Shown: piece by piece, positions 23,736-42,909 of the stretch
Layout: the number at the start of each line of letters is the position of its first letter
How positions within the stretch are numbered: position 1 is the stretch's first letter
DNA from: Chloroflexota bacterium
Lineage (GTDB): Bacteria > Chloroflexota > Limnocylindria > Limnocylindrales > CSP1-4
Assembly (NCBI GenBank): GCA_016200665.1
Contig: JACQEG010000035.1
Span: 1 to 43,088 of the forward strand
DNA length: 43,088 nucleotides
Direction: 5' to 3'
The notes under the pieces: generated by a model
Told to the model about the DNA's origin: nothing
Database searches by the model: none
The model's input: only the letters and a program-made list of their open reading frames with translations
Translations under genes and position numbers: made by a program

Positions 23736-23812
23736 TCCCGGCGGCGGACGTTCGCGGAGCCCCAGGGGATCGGCCAATTCGGCGTTAACAATCGTGGCTA
23801 TGCTCAGCGGAG

Positions 23813-24505
23813 ATGGCCCGAACGATCCTCGTCGTCGAGGACGAACCGACCCTCCGCGAGACCCTGGCGGAGGCCTTGGAGACGGATGGCTTCGCCGTTC
23901 GCACTGCCGCCGACGGACCGGCCGCGGTCGCCTCGTTTCGTGAGCAGGAGCCCGATCTCGTCCTCCTGGACCTGATGCTGCCCGGCATGTCCGGGATCGA
24001 CGTGACTCGCGTCCTGCGCTCGGCATCCGCGGTGCCGATCGTCATGCTCACCGCACGGGATTCGGAGGTCGACAAGGTCGTCGGGCTGGAGCTCGGCGCC
24101 GACGACTACGTCACGAAGCCCTTCAGCCTCCGCGAGCTCTCGGCTCGGATCCGGGCGATCTTCCGGCGAACGGACCAGCTCGGCTCGACGCAGCTGCCAC
24201 CGCTCGTCGACCTCGGCCCCGTCCGGGTGGACCTCGCCGGCCACCGGCTCCTCCGGGACGGCCACGAGGTGCCGATCAAGCCGAAGGTCTTCGAGCTCCT
24301 GTCGTTCCTGCTGCGCCACCCGGGCCAGGTCATGACCCGCGACCAGCTGCTCGAGCACGTCTGGGGCTATGACTACCCGGGCGAGACGCGCACGGTCGAC
24401 GTCCACGTCCACTGGCTCCGTTCGGCGATCGAGCCGGATCCCGGGGTCCCGACGATCGTCCAGACCGTCCGCGGCGTCGGCTACGTCCTGCGGCGGCCCG
24501 CCTGA
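23813..24505 (+). CDS. OmpR/PhoB-family response regulator (RegX3-like)
   Basis: 230 residues. Receiver domain: ILVVEDEP, phosphoacceptor Asp53 in DLVLLDLMLPG, VPIVMLTARDSEVDK, Lys in DDYVTKPFS. Effector domain: GHRLLRDGHEVPIKPKVFELLSFLLRHPGQVMTRDQLLEHVWGYDYPGETRTVDVHVHWLR, a winged helix of the OmpR type. The GYDYPGETRTVDVHVHWLR stretch resembles RegX3, the phosphate-related regulator of actinobacteria. No kinase is adjacent; the single PAS-HisKA kinase at 33672 is the best partner, and pstSCAB-phoU and pit are likely targets. Upstream: GTTAACA (23784-23790), also present before pstS, and TATGCT 8 nt before the ATG. Confidence 0.9.
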   Translation: MARTILVVEDEPTLRETLAEALETDGFAVRTAADGPAAVASFREQEPDLVLLDLMLPGMSGIDVTRVLRSASAVPIVMLTARDSEVDKVVGLELGADDYVTKPFSLRELSARIRAIFRRTDQLGSTQLPPLVDLGPVRVDLAGHRLLRDGHEVPIKPKVFELLSFLLRHPGQVMTRDQLLEHVWGYDYPGETRTVDVHVHWLRSAIEPDPGVPTIVQTVRGVGYVLRRPA

Positions 24506-24518
24506 CGGACGCGTATTG

Positions 24519-24538
24519 ACGCGCCGAACACGGCGCGT
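24519..24538. terminator. Hairpin after the response regulator gene
   Basis: ACGCGCCG-aaca-CGGCGCGT is a perfect 8-bp stem with a 4-nt loop, 13 nt after the stop. No T tract follows, as at other gene ends here, so it may be a factor-dependent or pause-type terminator. Confidence 0.5.
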
Positions 24539-24565
24539 TCACCGCGCCGCCCGAATGTCGGCGCC

Positions 24566-24841
24566 ATGACGAACCCACCATTCAGGACCGAGGTCCAGCG
24601 ACTCCGCCAGTGGTGCGGGGACCCCACGATCGAGGTCGAGGCGGTCGTCGCCCACCTCGAGCCGATCCGCTCGCGATCCAGCCTGCTGTCCTCGTTTGCC
24701 CGCGAAGCCAGTCCATCCGAGCCGGTCCGGACCGCCTATGCGATCCGCTGGCTCGAGCTCGGCTCCGGCATCGCGGCGGCCGGCGTCTCGCGGTCCAGGC
24801 GCCGCCGCGTCATGCGGCCCGTCCTCCGGGGCCGCTCCTAG
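24566..24841 (+). CDS. 91-aa protein, function unknown
   Basis: ATG 24566 begins 60 nt after the response regulator. The product reads like real protein rather than a shadow: RTEVQRLRQWCGDPTIEVEAVVAHLEPIRSRSSLLSSFAREA, then EPVRTAYAIRWLELGSGIAAAG, and a basic tail (SRSRRRRVMRPVL). It is soluble, with no signal peptide or membrane helix and one Cys. No ribosome site is visible, and overlapping frames are also open, so support is moderate. I do not recognise a family. Confidence 0.5.
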   Translation: MTNPPFRTEVQRLRQWCGDPTIEVEAVVAHLEPIRSRSSLLSSFAREASPSEPVRTAYAIRWLELGSGIAAAGVSRSRRRRVMRPVLRGRS

Positions 24842-25140: not shown

Positions 25141-26148
25141 CTAGAGGACCCGGCTGAGGATCTCCCAGGCGATCCACGCCACGGCGGCCGAGGCCGGCAG
25201 CGTCAGCACCCAGGCGATGACGATGTTCCAGGCCAGGCCCCACCGCACCGCTGAGAACCGGTCGCTCGCCCCGACGCCCATGATGGCGGACGAGATGACG
25301 TGGGTCGTCGAGACGGGCATCCCGAACGTCGATGCCCCGAGGATGATCGTGGCCGCGGTGGTCTCCGCCGCGAAGCCGTGGACCGGGTCGAGCTTGACCA
25401 CGCGCTGGCCCATCGTCCGGATGATCCGCCAGCCCCCGCCCGCGGTCCCGAGCGAGATGGCCGTCGCGGCCAGGATGATCACCCACAGGGGCACGACGGG
25501 CTCGGCCAGGACGCCGCCGGCGACGAGCGCCAGGGTGATGATGCCCATGGTCTTCTGGGCGTCGTTCGAGCCATGGCTGAACGCCATGTAGGCCGCCGAC
25601 AGGACCTGGAGCCGCCGGAAGCGCTCGTTGAGCCGGCGCGGATGGGCCCGCCGGAAGACATTGAGCAGCAGGACCATCATCAGGAAGCCGATGCCGATGC
25701 CGAGGATCGGCGAGAGGACCAGCGGCAGGAGGACCTTCTCGGCGATCCCGTCGGGCTTGAGCGCATTGACGCCGCCCGCGGCGACCGCGGCGCCGATGAG
25801 GCCGCCGATCAGGGCATGGCTGGACGACGAGGGGATCCCGAGCCGCCACGTGATGAGGTCCCAGGTGATGCCGCCGACGAGTGCCGCGGCGACGACGATC
25901 TGGCCGGCGTCGGCACCGGGTGGCGCCGTCGCGATCCCCGACGCGATCGTCTTTGCGACCGCCGTCCCCGTGAGCGCGCCGATGAAGTTGGCCGCCGCCG
26001 ACATGAGGATCGCGTAGTGCGGTCGCAGGGCCCGCGTCGAGACCGACGTCGCGATCGCGTTGGCCGTGTCGTGGAAGCCGTTGACATAGTCGAAGGCAAC
26101 CGCGAGCACGAGCACGAGGAGCAGGAGGAGGGTGAACCCGGAGGGCAC
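25141..26148 (-). CDS. pit: PiT-family inorganic phosphate transporter
   Basis: 335 residues, GTG start (MPSGFTLLLLLVLVLAVAFDYVNG). Both PiT signature repeats are present: FDYVNGFHDTANAIATSVSTRALRP at the N-half and FSHGSNDAQKTMGIITLAL at the C-half, each with its Asn-Asp/His-Asp pair. About ten membrane helices. It imports phosphate, usually as a metal-phosphate complex, driven by protons. In most bacteria pit is next to its DUF47 partner; here DUF47 lies about 7 kb away (32975). It is divergent from proS. TAGCCT stands exactly 6 nt before the GTG on the minus strand. Confidence 0.93.
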   Translation of the reverse strand: MPSGFTLLLLLVLVLAVAFDYVNGFHDTANAIATSVSTRALRPHYAILMSAAANFIGALTGTAVAKTIASGIATAPPGADAGQIVVAAALVGGITWDLITWRLGIPSSSSHALIGGLIGAAVAAGGVNALKPDGIAEKVLLPLVLSPILGIGIGFLMMVLLLNVFRRAHPRRLNERFRRLQVLSAAYMAFSHGSNDAQKTMGIITLALVAGGVLAEPVVPLWVIILAATAISLGTAGGGWRIIRTMGQRVVKLDPVHGFAAETTAATIILGASTFGMPVSTTHVISSAIMGVGASDRFSAVRWGLAWNIVIAWVLTLPASAAVAWIAWEILSRVL

Positions 26149-31030: not shown

Positions 31031-32356
31031 ATGGATACCCCGCGCCGCGGTCGAGTTGTTCTCGCGATTGTCGTGGCTGCGGCTCTCATGGTCCCCCTCG
31101 GGTCGGTGTCAGCCGCTCGCTCGTCATTCGCGACTGTTGCCACCTCGTCTCTCGCGGCGAGTTTCGACTCAGCGGGTATACCGCTTGTTACGAACATCAT
31201 GCAGCCGCGCCCGAAGTCCGAGTCGCAGGCGCAGGCGGTAAGTGACGCGCAAGTCTTTGCGGAAGAGCACCCAGACTCAGTCGGCTATCCATGGCTCGAC
31301 CGGGAAACGGGAACCGTAGAGCTTTCAGCGACGAATGAACAGGCGCGCGCTCTTCTCGACGGGGAAGCGGTCGCCCTGAAGGCCGCCGGCGGGGCTGGTG
31401 TCAACTTTACCGTTCGTAACGCGGAGTCCTCCGTCGCGCAGTTGATGGCTATCTCTGACGACATCACCGCGCTCCAACAGCAGGGCGTACCAGACGCCGA
31501 CTTCATCTACCTCACAGCCCCGGACTTCCAGACCAATCGCATCGTGATTCGGGTCAGCGCCGCGAGCACGGAGTTGTTCGCCACGCTGGCGCGACGATAC
31601 GGCACTGCAGCCATCGCCGTCTGGATCGATCCCAGCCCGCATGATGCCTCGACGCTCAGTCGGGACAACGACGTGCCCGATTTCTATGGTGGCGCCAAGA
31701 TCGGGACTCCAGGCAATTCCTGTTCAGACGCGTTTTCATGGACAACCGCCTCTACCAAAGGGAATGCGCTGTTAACCGCCGCTCACTGCATACCCTCGGG
31801 GGGCAACGTAACGATTGGAACCAGCAGTACCGTGAGAGGCACCGTGACTGCCAGCTCGGAGGAGAACTGGGACGCGACCTACGGGACGCGGTACTACAGC
31901 GGACAAGCGACGTACCGCGGCGACGTAGCGCTGATCCGGCTGAGCAGCGCATACAGGTCCGTCTCGGAGATCTACCGTGGCGGACCAACCTCGTCAACCC
32001 ATTCAAACGTTGCCACGAGACTACTACGCTTCAGCTATCCCGACGAGAATGTCTACGTCGGAGGCGCGAGAACTGGTGAGACTGGCCCATATCACATCAA
32101 CTTCGTCAACGTAAACGTTTGGTACAATCTGGACGGACCAAACGTGATCGCGAGGAACGTTACGACCGCGTACCTTCTAAACTCAGGCACGGTCGTCGAT
32201 CACGGCGACTCGGGTGGATCGGTGTTCCGAGTTGACGGCTCCGGGGGCATCATCGCGGTTGGTGTTCATAGCGGGAAGATTGGTGACAGCACGGCGGCCT
32301 TTACAGACATCTACCACTCGTTTCTCGCGCTTCCAGGCGACGTGAATCTGAACTGA
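31031..32356 (+). CDS. Secreted trypsin-like (S1) serine protease with propeptide
   Basis: 441 residues from ATG 31031, GGGGAG 9 nt upstream. Signal peptide MDTPRRGRVVLAIVVAAALMVPLGSVSA, a pro-region of about 185 residues (EHPDSVGYPWLDRETGTVELSATNEQARALL, DADFIYLTAPDFQTNRIVIRVSAAS), then a chymotrypsin-fold domain. Triad: His in LLTAAHCIP, Asp in YRGDVALIRL, Ser in HGDSGGSVF. Cys around SCSD and AHC could form the usual disulfide. Resembles streptogrisin/alpha-lytic secreted proteases that need their pro-region to fold. Codon use is unlike the neighbours: many A/T third positions and a TTA codon; one 60-nt line counted (32101) is 50% GC. Likely acquired. Confidence 0.88.
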   Translation: MDTPRRGRVVLAIVVAAALMVPLGSVSAARSSFATVATSSLAASFDSAGIPLVTNIMQPRPKSESQAQAVSDAQVFAEEHPDSVGYPWLDRETGTVELSATNEQARALLDGEAVALKAAGGAGVNFTVRNAESSVAQLMAISDDITALQQQGVPDADFIYLTAPDFQTNRIVIRVSAASTELFATLARRYGTAAIAVWIDPSPHDASTLSRDNDVPDFYGGAKIGTPGNSCSDAFSWTTASTKGNALLTAAHCIPSGGNVTIGTSSTVRGTVTASSEENWDATYGTRYYSGQATYRGDVALIRLSSAYRSVSEIYRGGPTSSTHSNVATRLLRFSYPDENVYVGGARTGETGPYHINFVNVNVWYNLDGPNVIARNVTTAYLLNSGTVVDHGDSGGSVFRVDGSGGIIAVGVHSGKIGDSTAAFTDIYHSFLALPGDVNLN

Positions 32357-32974: not shown

Positions 32975-33592
32975 CTACGCGTGCTTGATGGTGATCCGCT
33001 CGATGATGTTGGCGACGTCCTCGCATTTGTCGATCGTCGACTCGAGGAGCGCGTAGACGTCCTTCCACCTGATGACCTCGAGCGGATCGGCGCCACCCGA
33101 GAACAGGTCGGCGATGGCCTTTCGGGCGAGCACGTCGCCCTCGTTCTCGAGGCGGTGGACCTCGATCCAGTACTTCTCGAGGCCCTTGAACCCGCGCAGG
33201 TGGCTGAGCGCGTCGTGGAGCTGCTCGCATTGCTTGACGATGATCGATGCCTGCTGGACCGCGACGGCGGTTGGCGCCTCGATCCGGTACAGGACGAAGG
33301 TGTCGGCGCACTCCTCGATGTAGTCGAGGACGTCGTCGAGCCCGCTGATGAGCGCGTAGATCTCCTCGCGGTCGAACGGCGTCACGAACGTCGCCTCGAG
33401 CCGGTGGCCGATGTCGTGGCTGATCTCGTCGCCGCGATGCTCCGCGTCGCGGATCTCGCGGGCCCGCGCCTCCGGCGCGTCGTACGTCCGGACCATCGCC
33501 TCGAAGAGGCGGGCGGCCCCGAGGAGGTTGGCCGCATCGTCGATGAACAGGTCGAAGAAGCGCGTCTCGCGCGGGATGAGTCTGAGCTTCAC
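32975..33592 (-). CDS. DUF47 family PhoU-like phosphate transport regulator
   Basis: 205 residues, GTG start (MKLRLIPRETRFFDLFIDDAANLL). Helical DUF47 marks: EIRDAEHRGDEISHDIGHRLEATFVTPFDREEIYALISGLDDVLDYIEECAD, and DALSHLRGFKGLEKYWIEVHRLENEGDVLARKAIADLFSGGADPLEVIRWKDVYALLE, with repeated metal-binding E/D-H patterns as in PhoU. It normally regulates or partners Pit; pit is 7 kb away. TACCCT is 7 nt before the GTG, with no ribosome site. Its last 14 codons are duplicated at 30416 on the far side of the insertion. The ORF ends ITIKHA. Confidence 0.9.
   Translation of the reverse strand: MKLRLIPRETRFFDLFIDDAANLLGAARLFEAMVRTYDAPEARAREIRDAEHRGDEISHDIGHRLEATFVTPFDREEIYALISGLDDVLDYIEECADTFVLYRIEAPTAVAVQQASIIVKQCEQLHDALSHLRGFKGLEKYWIEVHRLENEGDVLARKAIADLFSGGADPLEVIRWKDVYALLESTIDKCEDVANIIERITIKHA
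32979..33017. repeat. Right copy of the DUF47 3' end repeat
   Basis: This copy is the intact end of the DUF47 gene. It shares 22 identical bp with 30420-30441 and about 13 of the next 17 bp. Distance between copies is 2,559 bp. Differences fall mostly at synonymous or conservative codon positions, as expected if an element carried its own version of the gene end. Confidence 0.7.
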
Positions 33593-33671
33593 GCCGGCAA
33601 GGGTAGCGCCTCGGCGCGCGGCGGCCGCGCCACCCGCGCCGGCGGGGCGGCGGTGTGCGATCCTCGCGCTC

Positions 33672-34922
33672 GTGGACCCGGTCGCCCTCGTCGCCCTGGC
33701 GATCATGACGGTCGCCCTCGCGATCGCGGTCGGCGTCGCGATCTCGCGGGGGCGGACCCTGGACGGGGCTCGCGATGTGGTGGCAGCCGCCCTGCCGGCG
33801 GACGCCTCGCGCCCGGCCGGCGACGACCTCTCGGACGACATCGGTCGACTGCGACGGCGAGCGGACACGGCCGAGTTCGCCCTGGCGCAGCGCCTCCGGG
33901 ACCTGGCCTACCTTGCGGACCTCGTCGGCGTCGGCATCGTCCGCCTGACCGATGACCTGCGGGTTGAGGTCGCGAACACCGCGGCCCACGTCTTCCTCGG
34001 CCGGGCGCCCGGCTCGATGGTCGGTCGGACCGCCATCGAGGCGCTCGGTGACCATCGGATCGAGGCGGTCGCGATCGCGGCCCGCGAGGCGGGCTCGGCC
34101 ACCGACGAGGTCGCGCCGCAGGGCCCTGACGGTCCCACGCTCGTCGTTCGCGCCCGGCGCTCGCCGATCCTCGGCATCTGGCTGGTCCTCCAGGACGTCG
34201 CCGAGCTGCGCCGCCTCCAGCGGATCCGGGCCGAGTTCGTCGACAACCTGAGCCACGAGCTGCGAACGCCGATCACGACGATCGGCCTGCTCACCGAGAC
34301 GCTGGCCCGCGACGCCGAGCAGGCCGGCGAGGCCGTCCCGGCCCGGATGCGCGACCGGATCGGCAAGCTCGAGGTCGAGACCGGCAACATCGCCCAGATG
34401 GTCAGCGAGCTCCTGGACCTGGCGCGGATCGAGTCCGGCGGGCCGCAGCTGCTGCTCGACGACGTCGATCTCGGGCGGGTGGTGGCCGAGTCGGTGGAGC
34501 GGCTCCGGCCGTTTGCCGAGCGGCAGGGGATCGAGCTGCGGACGACGATCGAGCCTGGCCTGCCGCGGGTTCGTGGCGAGGCCGGCCGTCTCGGCCAGGT
34601 CATCACGAACCTCGTCCACAACGCCGTGAAGTTCAGCCAGTCCGGCGGCGAGGTCGAGGCCGGCGTTCGAGCCGACGGCGGGAGCGTCGTGGCGTGGGTC
34701 ACCGACCATGGCATCGGCATCGAGCCGGCCGATCAGCCCCGGATCTTCGAGCGCTTCTACAAGGCGGACCGGACTCGCACCGGTGGTGGCGGGACCGGCC
34801 TCGGGCTGGCGATCGTCCGGCATATCGTCGAGTGCCACGGCGGCGCGATCGGCGTCGCCTCGGAGCCGGGTGCCGGCTCCACGTTCACGGTCACGCTCCT
34901 CGCGGAGGGACCCACCCCATGA
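33672..34922 (+). CDS. PAS-containing sensor histidine kinase (SenX3/PhoR-like)
   Basis: 416 residues from GTG 33672 (LVDPVALVALAIMTVALAIAV... start at Val); the 503-aa ORF begins inside DUF47 antisense. One N-terminal membrane helix, a linker helix, a PAS domain (LADLVGVGIVRLTDDLRVEVANTAAHVFLGR), HisKA with His195 in FVDNLSHELRTPITTIGLLTETLA, and HATPase: NLVHNAVKFSQ, TDHGIGIEPADQPRIFERFYKADRTR, GGTGLGLAIVRHIVECHGGAIG. The compact layout is that of SenX3/PhoR phosphate kinases. It is divergent from the DUF47 gene over 79 bp. The likely partner response regulator is encoded at 23813. Confidence 0.9.
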   Translation: MDPVALVALAIMTVALAIAVGVAISRGRTLDGARDVVAAALPADASRPAGDDLSDDIGRLRRRADTAEFALAQRLRDLAYLADLVGVGIVRLTDDLRVEVANTAAHVFLGRAPGSMVGRTAIEALGDHRIEAVAIAAREAGSATDEVAPQGPDGPTLVVRARRSPILGIWLVLQDVAELRRLQRIRAEFVDNLSHELRTPITTIGLLTETLARDAEQAGEAVPARMRDRIGKLEVETGNIAQMVSELLDLARIESGGPQLLLDDVDLGRVVAESVERLRPFAERQGIELRTTIEPGLPRVRGEAGRLGQVITNLVHNAVKFSQSGGEVEAGVRADGGSVVAWVTDHGIGIEPADQPRIFERFYKADRTRTGGGGTGLGLAIVRHIVECHGGAIGVASEPGAGSTFTVTLLAEGPTP

Positions 34923-36410: not shown

Positions 36411-37244
36411 TCAGGCGAGGGCTGGTTTCGTGGCGCGAATGATCGCGGAGTGCATGCCCTCCGCCACGGCGTGGGTCGGGCGGATGTCGATCTCGGAGAG
36501 GCCTGCCGCGGCGAGCCCGGCGCGGAACTCGCGGAATGAGAGCGCGCCGGCGATGCAGCCGACGTAGGTCCCGCGCTCGGCTCGCTGATCGGCGGTCAGG
36601 AGGTCGTCGGCGACGACGTCGCTGACACCCACCCGGCCACCGGGCCGCAGGACCCGCGCGATCTCGCGGAAGACGGCGGTCTTGTCGACGGCGAGGTTGA
36701 TGACGCAGTTGCTGATGACGACGTCGACCGAGGCATCGGAAAGCGGCAGCGCCTCGATCGTGCCCTTGACGAACTCCACGTTCGTGGCGCCGGCATCGGC
36801 GGCGTTGCGCCGCGCCAGCTCGAGCATCTCGTCGGTCATGTCGACGCCGATGGCGCGGCCCGTCGGTCCGACGCGCTTGGCCGAGAGGAGGACGTCGATC
36901 CCGCCGCCCGAGCCCAGGTCGAGGACGGTCTCGCCCTCGTGCAGGTCGGCCACCGCGATGGGATTGCCGCAGCCGAGCGAGGCGAGCACGGCCGCTTCCG
37001 GCAGCCCCTCCGTCTCACCTGGGCGGTAGAGCTCGTAGCCGTACGTCGCCTGGCTCGCATCGGCGCAGCAGTCCGACCCGCAGCAGTCGGCGTTGGCAGC
37101 GGCGGCCTTGGAGCTCTCCCAGGCGTCTTCCGCGGTCTTGGCGTTCGCGACCGCGAGGGCGGCCTCCGCATAGCGGGCCCGAACGGCCTCGCGGGTCGCG
37201 GCCTGATCGGGGAGCAGGGGAGCGGGCTGGGTCGTGGTGGTCAC
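36411..37244 (-). CDS. arsM: Arsenite S-adenosylmethionine methyltransferase
   Basis: 277 residues from GTG 37244, GGAGG 7 nt upstream. SAM-binding: [40 protein letters not shown]. Arsenic cysteines: CCGSDCC near residues 54-60, ISNCVINL, and YVGCIAGA; these three Cys regions match the thiols that hold As(III) in ArsM. It methylates arsenite in the cytosol to volatile or less reactive forms. It is the second gene after a 71-aa protein, in an operon opposite arsR with a shared promoter region. Length is normal for bacterial ArsM. Confidence 0.93.
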
Positions 37245-37281
37245 CGGAGGTCCTCCGTCAGGGACGCGCTCGAATGATGAC

Positions 37282-37497
37282 TCAGCAGGTGGCGCAGGCG
37301 ATGGTCTCCCGCGCGCCCGGCGCGAGGCCGATGGCCGCCCGCATGCGATCGATGAGGCCACGGCGGTTCGCCGCGCTGCGATGCGGCTCCTGCTCGGCGG
37401 CGATGCGAGCCTCGTGCAGGGCGATGAGGTGGTAGCGATCGCGGGCCTCGGTCGGGTCGTTGATCGCGGACGGCCAGGTTCCGACGTTGAAGAGCAT
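37282..37497 (-). CDS. 71-aa Cys-tailed protein in the arsenic operon
   Basis: ATG 37497 has AAGGAG 9 nt upstream; the track shows only a longer out-of-place ORF. The product begins MLFNVGTWPSAINDPTEARDRYHLIALHEARIAAE, is helical and basic in the middle (RSAANRRGLIDRMRAAIG), and ends ARETIACATC, a C-x-x-C tail. It is the first gene behind the minus-strand ars promoter, 37 nt before arsM. The CxxC end could bind As(III) or another thiophilic metal, but this is inference. I do not recognise a named family. Confidence 0.68.
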   Translation of the reverse strand: MLFNVGTWPSAINDPTEARDRYHLIALHEARIAAEQEPHRSAANRRGLIDRMRAAIGLAPGARETIACATC

Positions 37498-37538
37498 CTC
37501 GTTGCACTCCTTCGCGGGTCTCGTTTCGGCCCGCCTGT

Positions 37539-37602
37539 ATCGATGGACATCAATATGACAGCAATATCGAGGCTTGTCAATATCGATATTCGTCGATAAC
37601 AT
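37539..37602. promoter_or_regulatory. Divergent ars promoters with ArsR-type operators
   Basis: Plus strand: TTGTCA (37574)-17 bp-TAACAT, exactly 6 nt before the arsR ATG (leaderless). Minus strand: TTGACA (37580-37575)-17 bp-CATATT toward the 71-aa gene. The two -35 boxes overlap. AATATCGATATT (37579-37590) is a perfect 12-bp palindrome in the arsR spacer, and ATCGATGgaCATCAAT (37539-37554) is a 7-2-7 inverted repeat with one mismatch over the other -10. Both fit ArsR binding. Confidence 0.8.
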
Positions 37603-37608
37603 GCGCCC

Positions 37609-37980
37609 ATGGCCCAGTCCACCGATCCAGACATCCGCCTGCTCGCCGCCCTCGCCGACCCCGTCCGGCTCGACATCGTCCGGGAGCTCGCGGGCTCCAA
37701 CGAGGTGTGTGCCTGCGATCTCACGAGCTGCTGCACCGTCCGCCAGCCGACGGTCTCGCACCACCTGCGCGTCCTGCGCGAAGCCGGCGCCGTCGTCTCC
37801 GAGCGCCGCGGCAGCAACATCTACTACCGGGTCGCGCCCAACCTCATCGAGCGCATCGGCGGGATCGCGCGGACCCTGGTTCCCGGCGGCCTCGTGACGG
37901 TCGCGCCGGCGGGCTCCAAGGGGACCCGTCCGGGCGCCGGTCCGGGCGCCGGTCCGGCCGCCGCAACTCCCGCGAGCTGA
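37609..37980 (+). CDS. arsR: ArsR-family arsenite-responsive repressor
   Basis: 123 residues. Winged HTH: IRLLAALADPVRLDIVRELA, then SNEVCACDLTSCCTVRQPTVSHHLRVLREAGAVVSERRGSNIYYRVAP. The C-x-C in EVCACDL matches the ELCVCDL arsenite site, with an extra CC just after it, which supports As(III)/Sb(III) sensing by a three-Cys set. A Gly/Pro/Ala-rich tail (residues 105-123) is not part of the fold. It stands opposite arsM with ArsR-type operators between, so it represses both directions until arsenite binds. The start is supported by a promoter 6 nt upstream. Confidence 0.92.
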   Translation: MAQSTDPDIRLLAALADPVRLDIVRELAGSNEVCACDLTSCCTVRQPTVSHHLRVLREAGAVVSERRGSNIYYRVAPNLIERIGGIARTLVPGGLVTVAPAGSKGTRPGAGPGAGPAAATPAS

Positions 37981-38019: not shown

Positions 38020-38724
38020 TCACGGATTGAGGTCCTCGATCCGGCCGGTGGCGAGATAGACGACGTCCTCGGCGACGTTCGTGACCCGATCGCCGATCCG
38101 CTCGATCCAGTGCGCGGCCAGGATGAGGCGAGTGCCCCGCTCGACCGTCGCCGGCTCCTCCCGCATCCGCTCGACGACGTCGGCGAAGACGGTCCGGTAC
38201 AGGTGATCGATCTCGTCGTCGCGGGCGGCGACCTCGCGCGCCAGCCGATCGTCGACGTCGATGAGCGCCGTCACGATCCCGCGCACCAGGTCGGCGGCGA
38301 GGTTGCCCATCCGGGCCAGGGTCGCGACCTCCCCGAGCTGCGCCTCCTCGGCGAGCCGGCGGGTCTGCTTGGCGATGCTCGAGGCGTGATCGCCGATCCG
38401 CTCGAGCTCGAAGGCGACGTGGTCGAGGGCCATGAGGAAGCGCAGGTCGCGCGCAACCGGGGATTGGGTCGCGATCGTCATGACGATGATGTCGCCGGCC
38501 TCGCGCTGGGCCTCGTTGATCCGGCCGTCGCCCTCGATGACCGCCGCCGCCAGGCCGGCGTCGCGGTCGACAATCGACTTCACGGCGTCGCGGATCTGGG
38601 CCTCGACGAGCGAGCCCATCCGGAGGATGCCGTCCTTGACGAGGCGCTCGTCCCGATCGAGGCCGCCGCGGGACCTGAGGTGATCGCCCCGCGCCGCCAC
38701 GCCGCCGTCCGTCTCGATGTCCAT
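38020..38724 (-). CDS. phoU: Phosphate transport system regulator PhoU
   Basis: 234 residues from ATG 38724, overlapping the pstB stop by one base. Two three-helix PhoU repeats: RLVKDGILRMGSLVEAQIRDAVKSIVDRDAGLAAAVIEGDGRINE, DLRFLMALDHVAFELERIGDHASSIAKQTRRLA, then RDDEIDHLYRTVFADVVERM, LILAAHWIERIGDRVTNVAEDVVYLATG. The E-x-x-x-D-H metal patterns are intact. It relays Pst transporter state to the PhoR-like kinase, probably that encoded at 33672. A 25-residue N-terminal lead (ETDGGVAARGDHLRSR) precedes the domain. Last gene of the pst operon. Confidence 0.94.
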   Translation of the reverse strand: MDIETDGGVAARGDHLRSRGGLDRDERLVKDGILRMGSLVEAQIRDAVKSIVDRDAGLAAAVIEGDGRINEAQREAGDIIVMTIATQSPVARDLRFLMALDHVAFELERIGDHASSIAKQTRRLAEEAQLGEVATLARMGNLAADLVRGIVTALIDVDDRLAREVAARDDEIDHLYRTVFADVVERMREEPATVERGTRLILAAHWIERIGDRVTNVAEDVVYLATGRIEDLNP

Positions 38725-39593
38725 CAGCCGAACCGTCCCGAGATGTAGTCCTCGGTCAGCTGCTCGCGGGGGTTCGTGAAGACCTTCACGGTGTCGTCCA
38801 CCTCGACAAGGTAGCCAGCGCGGTCGGTCCCCATGGTGAAGAACGCCGTTCGGTCGCTGACCCGGGAGGCCTGCTGCATGTTGTGGGTCACGATCACGAT
38901 CGTGTAGCGCTCCCTGAGCCGCAGCATCAGCTCCTCCACCTGCTGGGTCGCCACAGGGTCGAGCGCCGAGCAGGGCTCGTCCATGAGGAGGACGTCCGGC
39001 TCCATGGCCAGCGCCCGGGCGATGCACAGGCGCTGCTGCTGGCCGCCTGACAGCGACGACCCGGAGTGATGCAGCTTGTCCTTGACCTCGTCCCACAGCG
39101 CGGCCTGGCGGAGGCAGTGCTCGACGAGGGCGTCCTCGGCCGAGCGACCCTTGACGAGGCCGTTGAACCGGGCGGCCGCGATGACGTTCGTCGCGATCGA
39201 CATCGTCGGGAAGGGGTTTGGCTGCTGGAAGACCATCCCGATCGTGCGGCGAACCGCGGCCGGGTCGACGCCCGGGTCGTAGATGTCGATGCCGCGATAC
39301 GTGATCGATCCCTCGACATGGGCGCCGGGGATGATCTCGTGCATCCGGTCGATGCACCGGAGCAGCGTCGACTTCCCGCTCCCGGACGGCCCGATGATCG
39401 CGGTGATCGAGTTCGGCGGGATGTCGAGGTCCACGTCGCGAATGACGCGTCGCGGCCCGTAGTAGGCGCTCACGGCCCCGATCCGAACAACCGGCGCAGC
39501 GCCGGGCGCCACGACCGGTGCGGCGGCGATGGCGACCGGCCTCGGAGGCGGCACGACCGGTGCTGGCGACGGAGGCAGGTCTTCGATGATCAT
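38724..39593 (-). CDS. pstB: Phosphate ABC transporter ATP-binding protein
   Basis: 289 residues from ATG 39593, chosen because AAGGAG is about 4-5 nt upstream; ATG 39635 overlaps the pstA stop as ATGA and is the alternative. Walker [21 protein letters not shown]-loop VFQQPNPFP, signature [18 protein letters not shown], Walker [15 protein letters not shown]-loop VTHNMQQA. The PNPFP and DEPCSALDP variants are specific to PstB. An unusual Pro/Val/Ala-rich N-terminal lead of about 35 residues precedes the ATPase. It powers phosphate import through PstAC. Confidence 0.96.
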
Positions 39594-39631
39594 CGGTCTC
39601 CTTGCGTCGTGCTCCTCCCGACCGGCCGAGC

Positions 39632-40522
39632 TCATCGGCGGGCGAGATTGCGCCGAGCCACCAGCCAGCGGCCGACGAGGTTGAAGATCAGGACGATCGC
39701 GATGAGGACGAGCGCCGCGCCCATCGCCCGGTCGCGAGCGGCCGGAAACGCCGAGTTCAGCGCGTTGCGATAGATCAGCAGCGGAAGGCCCTGCATCGGC
39801 TCGGACAGGCTGACGCTGAAGAAGTTGTTGCCGAGGGCTGTGAACAGCAGCGGCGCGGTCTCGCCGATGGCGCGCGAGATCGCGAGCAGGACACCCGTGA
39901 AGATCCCCGACAGCGCCGTCGGCAGGAGGACCGCCAGGTACGACCGCCAGCGGCTCATCCCCAGTGCCCGGACACCCTCGGCCACCGGTCGTGGCGTGAG
40001 GCGGAGCATCTCCTCGGTCGAGACGACGATGAGCGGCAGCATGATGACGGCGAGGGCGATCGACCCGGCAAGGGCGCTGAAGTGGCCCTGGCCGACGACG
40101 ACGAGCTCGTAGACGAAGATCCCCACGACGATCGACGGCAGGGCGGCCAGGATGTCGATCACGAACCGGATGGCGGTCGCGAGACGGCCGCCGACCTCGG
40201 CGTTGAAGACCGCGATGAGCAGCCCTACCGGAACGGCGATCGCCGTCGCGATGCCCGTCATCTCGAGGGTCCCGACGATGGCGTTCCGGATGCCACCACC
40301 CAGGGCGCTGAGGTCGCCCGGCGGATCCTGAAGGAAGAAGTCCGGCCGGATCACGCCGATGCCCTGGCTCACGATGAACGATCCCACGGCCAGCAGTGGC
40401 ACGAGGGCGACGAGGAGGGCGACGAATGTCAGCGTCCGCGCCACGGCCGCACGGGTCCGGCGCCCGCCGCTCGTGGGCCGGAGCTGGGCGGGTGCACGGG
40501 CGAGCGTCAGCTCAGCTGCCAC
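39632..40522 (-). CDS. pstA: Phosphate ABC transporter permease PstA
   Basis: 296 residues, GTG start, overlapping the pstC end by 11 bases. Six membrane helices of the PstA type; EAA loop in [25 protein letters not shown], plus [18 protein letters not shown] and [16 protein letters not shown], both PstA signatures. Forms the membrane channel with PstC for high-affinity phosphate import. Confidence 0.95.
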
Positions 40523-41498
40523 GGCCGGCCACCTGCGTCACCCGTCGGCGGATCAGGAGCCCGGCTCCGTTGATGAGCACCGCGATGACGAGCAGAACGA
40601 CGCCGAGGGTGATGAGGGACTCGGCGTGGAGCGGCTCGGTCGCCTCGTTGAACTCGTTGGCGATGACGCTCGCGAGCGTGAAGCCCGGCGAGAAGATCGA
40701 CGAGCCGATCCGCGGGGCGTTCCCGATCACGAGCGTGACGGCGATGGTCTCGCCGATCGCCCGCCCAAGCCCGAGCACGATGGCGGCGAGGAAGCCGGCT
40801 CGCCCGATCGGCAGGACGACTCGCCGGACGACGTCCCATGACGTGCCGCCGAGCGCCAGGACGGCCTCGCGCTGGAGGCGGGGCGTCGCAGCGAACACCT
40901 CGCGGGTCACCGCCGCCACGATCGGGATGATCATGAACGCGACGATCACCCCGGCAGCGAAGTAGCTCGGCCCGGGTGTCGGGGGCCCCAGGAACGGGAC
41001 CACCGAGCCGGCGCTGGCGGCGATCGCGTGCTCGATCGGGCGCAGGAACGGCACGAGCACCAGGAGCCCCCACAGGCCCCAGACGACCGAAGGGATCGCC
41101 GCCAGGAGATCGACCGTCACCGCGACGGGCCCGGCGATCCGCGGTGGGAGGTACTCGGTGACGAGGAGCGCAATGCCGAGCGCCACCGGCACGGCGATGA
41201 GCAGCGCGATGACGCTCGTCAGGAGCGTCCCGAAGATGAACGGCAGCGCGCCGTAGATCGTGAACGAGGGGGCCCACCGGAGGCCGGTGACGAAGTCCCA
41301 GATCCCGAACGTCGAGATGACCGGCGCGGTCGTGATGACGCTGTCGTAGACCATCAGGCCGACGGTCGCGAGTGCCACGACGGTGCCGGCCGCGGCGATG
41401 ACCCGGAAGACCACGTCGCCGCTGAGACGACGACGCCGGGGCAGGGCCCTCTCGGGCGCCTGCCCCGGTGGTTGCCGGGCGCTGATCCGGATGGTCAC
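40512..41498 (-). CDS. pstC: Phosphate ABC transporter permease PstC
   Basis: 328 residues, GTG start (MTIRISARQ). Six helices after a basic lead; AAIPSVVWGLWGLLVLVPFLRP, AVLALGGTSWDVVRRVVLPIGRAGFLAAIVLGLGRAIGETIAVTLVIGNAPRI are typical PstC blocks. The start codon lies in the 3' arm of an 11-bp hairpin between pstS and pstC. The first 11 bases of the gene (GTGACCATCCG) repeat those of pstS. Channel partner of PstA. Confidence 0.95.
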   Translation of the reverse strand: MTIRISARQPPGQAPERALPRRRRLSGDVVFRVIAAAGTVVALATVGLMVYDSVITTAPVISTFGIWDFVTGLRWAPSFTIYGALPFIFGTLLTSVIALLIAVPVALGIALLVTEYLPPRIAGPVAVTVDLLAAIPSVVWGLWGLLVLVPFLRPIEHAIAASAGSVVPFLGPPTPGPSYFAAGVIVAFMIIPIVAAVTREVFAATPRLQREAVLALGGTSWDVVRRVVLPIGRAGFLAAIVLGLGRAIGETIAVTLVIGNAPRIGSSIFSPGFTLASVIANEFNEATEPLHAESLITLGVVLLVIAVLINGAGLLIRRRVTQVAGRGS

Positions 41499-41541: not shown

Positions 41542-42729
41542 TCATGGCAGGAGCGGCTGGCCGTTCCAGTTGATCGACTCGACGGCGGCCTCGTCCTGCG
41601 CGAGCAGCGAGGCCGGGATCGTGCCGTAGAACAGCGGGGCGCTGTCCTGCTGGCCCTCGTGGATGGCCCACCACAGGAAGTCGACGAGCGCCTTGGCCCG
41701 ATCCTGGTTCGTGAGGACCTTCGACAGGTCCTTGTAGACGATGAGCCATGTCGTCCCGGTGATCGGGTAGCCGTTCGCCGACGCGGTGTTCACGAGGTTG
41801 AACCGGAGGTCCGCGGGATAGCTCGGCAGGTTGGCGGCCTCCTTGACCGCGTCCAGGGACGGGGTGATGAAGTTGCCCGACTTGTTCTGGACATCGGCGA
41901 ACGGGATGCTGTTCTTGAGCGCGTAGGCGAGCTCGATGTAGCCGACACCACCGTCGGTCTGGTTGATCCCCTGCGTCACGCCCTCGTTGCCGCTCGCCCC
42001 GAGGCCCACGGGCCACTCGACCGTCTTGCCCGCGGACTTCGCCGGATCGCCACCACCGACGGTCGTCACCCAGTCCGGGCTGACCGCGGTGAGGTAGGTC
42101 GTGAAGATGCTCGTCGTGCCGGAGCCATCCGAGCGGTGGACGACGCTGACCTCGGTGTCCGGAAGGGTCACGCCCGCGTTGGCGGCGGCGATCAGGGGAT
42201 CGTTCCACTTCGTGATCCTGCCGTCGAAGATGCCGGCGATGACGTCCGGTGTCATCTTCAGCGGGGCGCTCAGGCCGCTCAGCTTGTAGGCGACGACGAC
42301 GGCGCCGAACGTCACGGGGACCTCGACCGGCTCGCCCTTGGTGGCGGCGGCGATGTCCGAGTCCTTCAGGAAGGCATCCGAGGCGCCGAAGTCGACCGTG
42401 TTGTCGGTCCAGGCCTTGATGCCGCCGCCCGACCCGATCGACTGGTAGTTGAGCTTCACGCCGCACTTGGCGTTGTAGTCGTCGCCCATCTTCGAGAGCA
42501 GCGGGAAGATGAACGTCGACCCCGCGCCGTTGAGCTGGCCGTCGCCCTTCGTGCAGCGGTAGGTGATCGTCTGGGCTGGCGTTCCGACCGGGGCGGCGCT
42601 CTGGTTTGCCGGGGTCGATGCCTGGGCTGCGGGCGTCTGCGACGCGAGCGTGCCGCCTCCGCAGGCCCCGACGACGACCACAGCCGCGAGCGCGAGGCCG
42701 CTGAGCTTCCAGGTGGGTCGGATGGTCAC
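41542..42729 (-). CDS. pstS: Phosphate ABC transporter substrate-binding lipoprotein
   Basis: 395 residues from GTG 42729, GGAGG about 9 nt upstream. Signal peptide with lipobox VVGAC, Ala/Thr/Pro tether, then PstS fold: LNGAGSTFIFPLLSKMGDDYNAK (phosphate-binding GAGST), NYQSIGSGGGIKAW, TVDFGASDAFLKD, IFDGRITKWNDPLIA, VSVVHRSDGSGTTSIFTTYL (RSDGSGTT ligand loop), GGVGYIELAYAL. Binds phosphate outside the membrane and delivers it to PstCA. First gene of pstSCAB-phoU; upstream DNA carries candidate PHO-type repeats. Confidence 0.95.
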   Translation of the reverse strand: MTIRPTWKLSGLALAAVVVVGACGGGTLASQTPAAQASTPANQSAAPVGTPAQTITYRCTKGDGQLNGAGSTFIFPLLSKMGDDYNAKCGVKLNYQSIGSGGGIKAWTDNTVDFGASDAFLKDSDIAAATKGEPVEVPVTFGAVVVAYKLSGLSAPLKMTPDVIAGIFDGRITKWNDPLIAAANAGVTLPDTEVSVVHRSDGSGTTSIFTTYLTAVSPDWVTTVGGGDPAKSAGKTVEWPVGLGASGNEGVTQGINQTDGGVGYIELAYALKNSIPFADVQNKSGNFITPSLDAVKEAANLPSYPADLRFNLVNTASANGYPITGTTWLIVYKDLSKVLTNQDRAKALVDFLWWAIHEGQQDSAPLFYGTIPASLLAQDEAAVESINWNGQPLLP

Positions 42730-42791: not shown

Positions 42792-42840
42792 GTCAAAGCC
42801 TCGACCGGCCCCGTCAACGGGCCGTCGCTCGCGTGTTAAC
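42792..42840 (-). promoter_or_regulatory. Candidate PHO-type direct repeats upstream of pstS
   Basis: On the minus strand GTTAAC (42840-42835), GTTGAC (42818-42813) and TTTGAC (42797-42792) recur at 22 and 21 bp, two turns of the 11-bp period used by PhoB/RegX3-type regulators; the in-between 11-mers match only in part (AGCGAC). TTGACC-17-TGCGCT is a weak promoter guess. GTTAACA also occurs before the response regulator gene. Confidence 0.5.
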
Positions 42841-42909
42841 AGGCGGTTCGCCGCCGCGCCGGGTGCCGAGCTCGTGGCCACGCCCACCGTTCGCGGCGGC
42901 GGCGGCTCG

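Follow-up and report, generated by a model that had tools for sequence, protein, structure and literature searches.

Gene organization of the locus

The window analyzed here is the entire contig G000:C71 (43,088 nucleotides), which belongs to a 2.37-Mb genome with 82% completeness. CSP1-4 and Limnocylindraceae are paired families in the class Limnocylindria of Chloroflexota (PMC13212565). The genomes of the family of the window, probably CSP1-4, were mostly 1.4–4.1 Mb in size, with approximately 70–74% GC at the loci, and those of the sister family were about 1.1 Mb, with 60–64% GC. The genes and sites found in the window are listed in Table 1.

The identity of pstS was supported by its TIGR00975 score of 323 bits, which exceeds the cut-off of 205. 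The response regulator encoded at 23813 consists of a receiver domain and a winged-helix domain, and MtrA (225 bits) was its second-best PDB match after RegX3. Its scores for the PhoB equivalog TIGR02154 and the MtrA equivalog NF040689 were 241.4 and 257.6 bits, below the cut-offs of 296.2 and 300, respectively, and it is therefore called a PhoB/RegX3-type regulator and not PhoB. In the phylogenetic tree, it clustered with its orthologues, and a separate paralogue of the same genome joined MtrA. The sensor histidine kinase likewise missed the cut-offs of its two best NCBIfam models, PnpS (244.1, cut-off 400) and PhoR (214.7, cut-off 334.2).

The gene order regulator, Pit, proS, DUF47, kinase, GDPD, ArsM, PhoU, and pst was conserved in many relatives. 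The regulator gene adjoins that of PhoU in G019, and in G037, a member of the sister family, it is located between PhoU and a divergent kinase gene. This conserved arrangement of regulator, kinase, PhoU, and pst suggests that the PhoR/PnpS-like kinase is the likely partner of the regulator. An arsenite methyltransferase-like gene (36411–37820, minus strand; NF008823 above cut-off) lies between phoU and the GDPD gene and occupies the same place in many relatives. The kinase gene is possibly leaderless, with GATCCT placed 7 nt ahead of GTG 33672 (33659–33674, plus strand), and has no 11-bp units upstream.

Table 1. Genes and promoter elements identified in the window
Feature	Position	Strand	Description
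Half-sites of the response regulator promoter, GCCAAT (23773–23778) and GTTAAC (23784–23789)	23773–23789	+	AA at −8/−7 in 19–20/20
−10 of the response regulator promoter, TATGCT	23799–23804	+	8 nt before ATG; predicted leaderless
OmpR/PhoB-type response regulator	23813–24505	+	PF00072 and PF00486; PDB RegX3, 248 bits; tree
PHO-type promoter of the small ORF	24515–24558	+	Scored 21.5 bits, second among the window sites
91-aa ORF	24566–24841	+	7 nt past −10; predicted leaderless
Pit-type phosphate transporter	25141–26148	−	PF01384
DUF47/PhoU_div protein	32975–33868	−	Domain match
PhoR/PnpS-like sensor histidine kinase	33672–34922	+	HisKA and HATPase_c; start predicted from sequence
pstC, pstA, pstB, and PhoU domain of the phoU ORF	38020–41498	−	NCBIfam above cut-off
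pstS	41542–42729	−	GTG start at 42729; TIGR00975; orthologues 80% and 71% identical
TTTGAC, third box of the original prediction	42792–42797	−	Present, not conserved; one-base overlap with −10
Putative −10, GAGGCT	42797–42802	−	10 bp past unit 4; A2 and T6 invariant, 21/21
Unit 4, GTTGAC	42813–42818	−	Promoter-proximal; TT and A invariant, 21/21
Unit 3, AGCGAC	42824–42829	−	Degenerate middle unit nnnnAY; fifth-position A in 20/21
Unit 2, GTTAAC	42835–42840	−	GTTAAC, or a variant differing at one base, in nearly all of the 21
Unit 1, GCGAAC	42846–42851	−	Degenerate here; resembles GTTNAC in about half of relatives; register of 21 promoters

Conserved 11-bp repeat array upstream of pstS

The original prediction described GTTAAC, GTTGAC, and TTTGAC upstream of pstS as candidate PHO boxes with two-turn spacing, separated by 22 and 21 bp. 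These steps were exact on the minus strand (42840–42835, 42818–42813, and 42797–42792, respectively), and a relaxed pattern of the trio had one match in the window and none in 200 shuffles. GTTAAC occurred three times in the 43 kb at 70.9% GC (23784, 31771, and 42835), compared to an expectation of about 0.5. GTTAACA, said to be rare and to recur ahead of the response regulator gene, was found on the plus strand at 23784 and 42835, two occurrences where about 0.06 were expected; the one at 23784 is 29 bp ahead of the ATG of that gene. The third GTTAAC (31771) is within a trypsin-like ORF (31031–32356) and outside any array.

Fourteen pstS promoters were collected by protein homology alone, by gathering orthologues in relatives through protein search and then reading their upstream DNA, and the other 7 of the 21 were found through the pattern GTTAACN16GTTNAC itself. 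The register was aligned for 19 promoters and then for 21, with G021, G030, G032, and G035 placed by eye. The 21 promoter sequences are related, and the counts given for them do not represent independent events. The alignment revealed a conserved array of 11-bp direct-repeat units, GTTNAC, GTTAAC, nnnnAY, and GTTSAY, followed by exactly 10 bp and SAnnCT. The fifth-position A of units 1–4, 11 bp apart, was present in 19–21 of the 21 promoters, and the invariant bases of unit 4 and of the −10 were found in all 14 promoters collected by homology.

The proposed fit to 11-bp direct repeats was supported, with the units retained in 21 pstS promoters, but the two-turn boxes are in fact three to four 11-bp units. 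Since the degenerate middle unit is in the 11-bp register, the 22-bp step merely skips over unit 3. TTTGAC was rejected as a third conserved box, since the relatives show no conservation at its position and it begins on the final base of the −10. The original prediction had been staked on relatives keeping the repeats ahead of pstS, and this was observed in 14/14 promoters collected by homology, which fit the array, the 10-bp step, and the −10; two of them, G021 and G030, fit weakly (leave-one-out score of G030, −12.8).

GTTAACN16GTTNAC was found in 13 of 37 genomes, with one match each, and was located before pst wherever the gene was readable; the reversed pattern had 4 matches. At the class level, the pstS promoter of G056 contains GTTCAC, GCTCAC, CCTCAC, and GCGCAC at 11 bp, followed by N10 and GACGCT (assigned by eye), and that of G058 showed no clear fit to the array. 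In the pst region of G015 (L204, 1303–2250), there are two PHO-type sites, the first upstream of the gene of a 248-aa regulator-like protein and the second upstream of a PstS-like gene.

Promoter of the response regulator gene

A related promoter, nCAAY-N5-GTTAAC-N9-TATSCT-N6–9-start, was kept upstream of the regulator gene in 20 genomes. G015, G028, and G036 have tandem 11-bp units with N10 before the regulator gene instead. The regulator orthologue was present and the promoter site absent in G016, G024, G026, G029, G032, and G035, and G030 has a variant. The start codon located 6–9 nt past the −10 implies leaderless messages. The tie originally drawn between the regulator at 23.8 kb and the pst operon at 42.7 kb gains support from this related conserved promoter, together with the conserved synteny with pst.

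Search for similar sites

A scoring matrix was trained on the pstS promoters of other genomes, with the genome of the window left out. The pst site scored 45.1, the next site in the window, at 24504 on the plus strand, scored 21.5, and the remainder scored 4.4 or less. The shuffled regions of 19 relatives gave one match of at least 13 in 702,754 positions. The scores of the pstS promoters outside the training set were 42.3, 34.3, and 43.0 for G017, G018, and G025, respectively. Genome-wide scans were by pattern, and that of three units plus −10 gave 33 matches versus 2 for the reversed controls in 37 genomes, and 125 matches versus 8, counted as rows, in the 177 genomes of the class.

A motif search had been proposed upstream of pit, the DUF47/kinase genes, GDPD, and phoU; in this window, nothing above 4.4 bits was found there. 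G015 has GTTGAC-N5-GTTAAC before pit, but the distance to the nearest TATCCT is 23 bp. A pattern match at G000:C111 was discarded as probably due to chance, being inside an open frame. Homologous two-unit sites with a −10 were also found before a small membrane-protein gene at G003:C10:77865–77904 (L248) and G009:C25:26286–26325 (L249), and in G009 another OmpR regulator is encoded about 590 bp from the site. These two sites are possibly targets of a different regulator that recognizes a similar sequence.

Small-protein family with a PHO-type promoter

The second-best site, absent from the original prediction and found by the matrix, precedes a 91-aa ORF directly past the regulator stop. It consists of ATTGAC (24515–24520), GAACAC (24526–24531), and GTTCAC (24537–24542), followed by N10 and the −10 GAATGT (24553–24558). 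The 91-aa ORF had no match in Pfam or NCBIfam. Within the family, 41 of 107 genomes encode homologues of it with the core LxPIxS...SxxRE...AYAxxW, and the remaining 70 genomes of the class yielded none. All 29 small-protein genes with readable upstream DNA have the three-unit site, N10, and −10, the last usually 6–7 nt ahead of the start. Most of these promoters are predicted to be leaderless. The scores of these 29 promoters, none of which was among the matrix training sequences, were 7.8–33.4, compared to a 99th percentile of 6.1 and a maximum of 12.5 for 290 shuffles. In G016 and some others, the small-protein gene is away from the regulator gene. The predicted fold is helical (pLDDT 76), with no PDB match at E ≤ 0.001.

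The matrix singles out this undescribed small-protein family, which probably belongs to the regulon. We propose tentatively, as a possible though on balance doubtful reading, that this protein family, which among the 177 genomes of the class was confined to this one bacterial family, belongs to the core of the PHO regulon, is translated from a leaderless message, and assists the phosphate regulator or its kinase as an accessory factor.

Regulatory model and alternative explanations

The comparison of these sequences suggests with high probability that the element before pstS is a PHO-type operator-promoter, through which the PhoB/RegX3-type regulator is predicted to bind and to activate pst in a class-II manner in response to phosphate, with autoregulation of its own gene. 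Under low phosphate, the PhoR-like kinase (33672–34922) would phosphorylate the response regulator (23813–24505), and dimers of the latter would occupy the 11-bp units before pstS in a head-to-tail arrangement. The promoter-proximal unit is 10 bp before a poor −10, which suggests that the regulator occupies the place where a −35 would be. From there, it would recruit RNA polymerase via sigma and switch on pstSCAB-phoU. The two-unit site, which is followed at 9 bp by a good −10 (TATGCT), may provide basal regulator expression and autoregulation, and the three-unit site would drive the adjacent, putatively leaderless small-protein gene.

TTGAC resembles the consensus −35 hexamer. GTTGAC contains this sequence, and the repeats might be read as an ordinary sigma-70 promoter with its flanks, retained by chance or through promoter constraint. 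This is extremely improbable: the conserved −10 is 10 bp past GTTGAC, not approximately 17 bp, a spacing for which GTTGAC was rejected as a sigma-70 −35, and three to four units are kept in the 11-bp register, with matches to reversed-pattern controls being rare. A role of the regulator as a repressor at these sites, or as a repressor of its own gene and an activator of pst, is unlikely. Boxes of Synechocystis SphR near the −10 repress urtA (PMC13226834), and the regulator promoter here combines a good −10 with a spacing of 9 bp in place of 10. However, the promoters of pst and the small-protein genes have no −35, and their −10 lacks the consensus first T, as expected of activator-dependent promoters.

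We consider it quite improbable that the array is a genuine 11-bp direct-repeat operator read by an OmpR-family regulator of this genome other than that at 23813. The genome holds 12 Trans_reg_C matches, similar sites occur before the small membrane-protein gene in G003 and G009, and the DevR-like PolR of Microlunatus was reported to bind GTTCACnnnnnGTTCaC (PMC6754071), which indicates that other regulators can recognize sequences of this kind. On the other hand, only the regulator of the window was found with related sites in its own promoter and synteny with pst, the MtrA-like paralogue is a separate protein, and the loci of the other regulators of the genome had no comparable site (best score 12.3, shuffle maximum 12.5). 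For an uncultivated, little-studied soil lineage, these results outline a putative phosphate regulon, and its operator, regulator, kinase, and targets can now guide searches across many genomes.

Comparison with known PHO systems

Among the titles listed in a literature search, none was recognized as dealing with PHO boxes in Chloroflexota. PHO boxes are composed of 11-nt units in direct repeat (PMC4415409). The pst element contains more than two units of this length with a conserved core, and such units lie upstream of phosphate-acquisition genes in the family pstS loci examined. The −35 is replaced, and the distance to the −10 (xAnnnT) is fixed at 10 bp in 21/21 pstS promoters and likewise in the small-protein genes, with transcription starts being predicted. 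By these sequence features, the pst element is probably a PHO operator of a known kind.

The PHO box of Streptomyces PhoP (GTTCACC) shares with it the near-identical half-site GTTSAC, 11-nt units, and a variable number of units (PMC4415409, PMC6754071); GTTCACnnnnnGTTCaC of Microlunatus PolR was compared with Streptomyces PhoP in the same paper (PMC6754071). In contrast to the Streptomyces box, the second unit here is GTTAAC, the degeneracy of the third follows a fixed pattern, and the step to the −10 is fixed at 10 bp; in the tree, the regulator of the window also falls in a separate clade. Among solved structures, Mycobacterium RegX3 is the nearest to the regulator (248 bits), and phosphate-dependent genes of M. 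smegmatis are reportedly under SenX3-RegX3 control (PMC4415409); however, RegX3 clusters with actinobacterial regulators, whereas the regulator of the window clusters with its own orthologues.

The cyanobacterial SphR boxes are YTTAAYYW repeats with a 3-nt spacer and overlap the −35 in activated promoters (PMC13226834). The TTAAY core, the 11-bp period, and the −35 overlap in activated promoters are common to SphR boxes and the pst element, whereas the first base here is G and not Y, GTTSAC units are mixed in, and the host is GC-rich. For E. coli PhoB, contact with sigma-70 and a strictly fixed distance to the core promoter have been reported (PMC4415409, PMC10294691). The E. coli pho box also consists of two or more 11-nt units, but its half-site is CTGTCAT, and the regulator of the window is under the PhoB equivalog cut-off. 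The operator logic, in which 11-bp units are strictly spaced from a weak −10, appears to be common to distant phyla.
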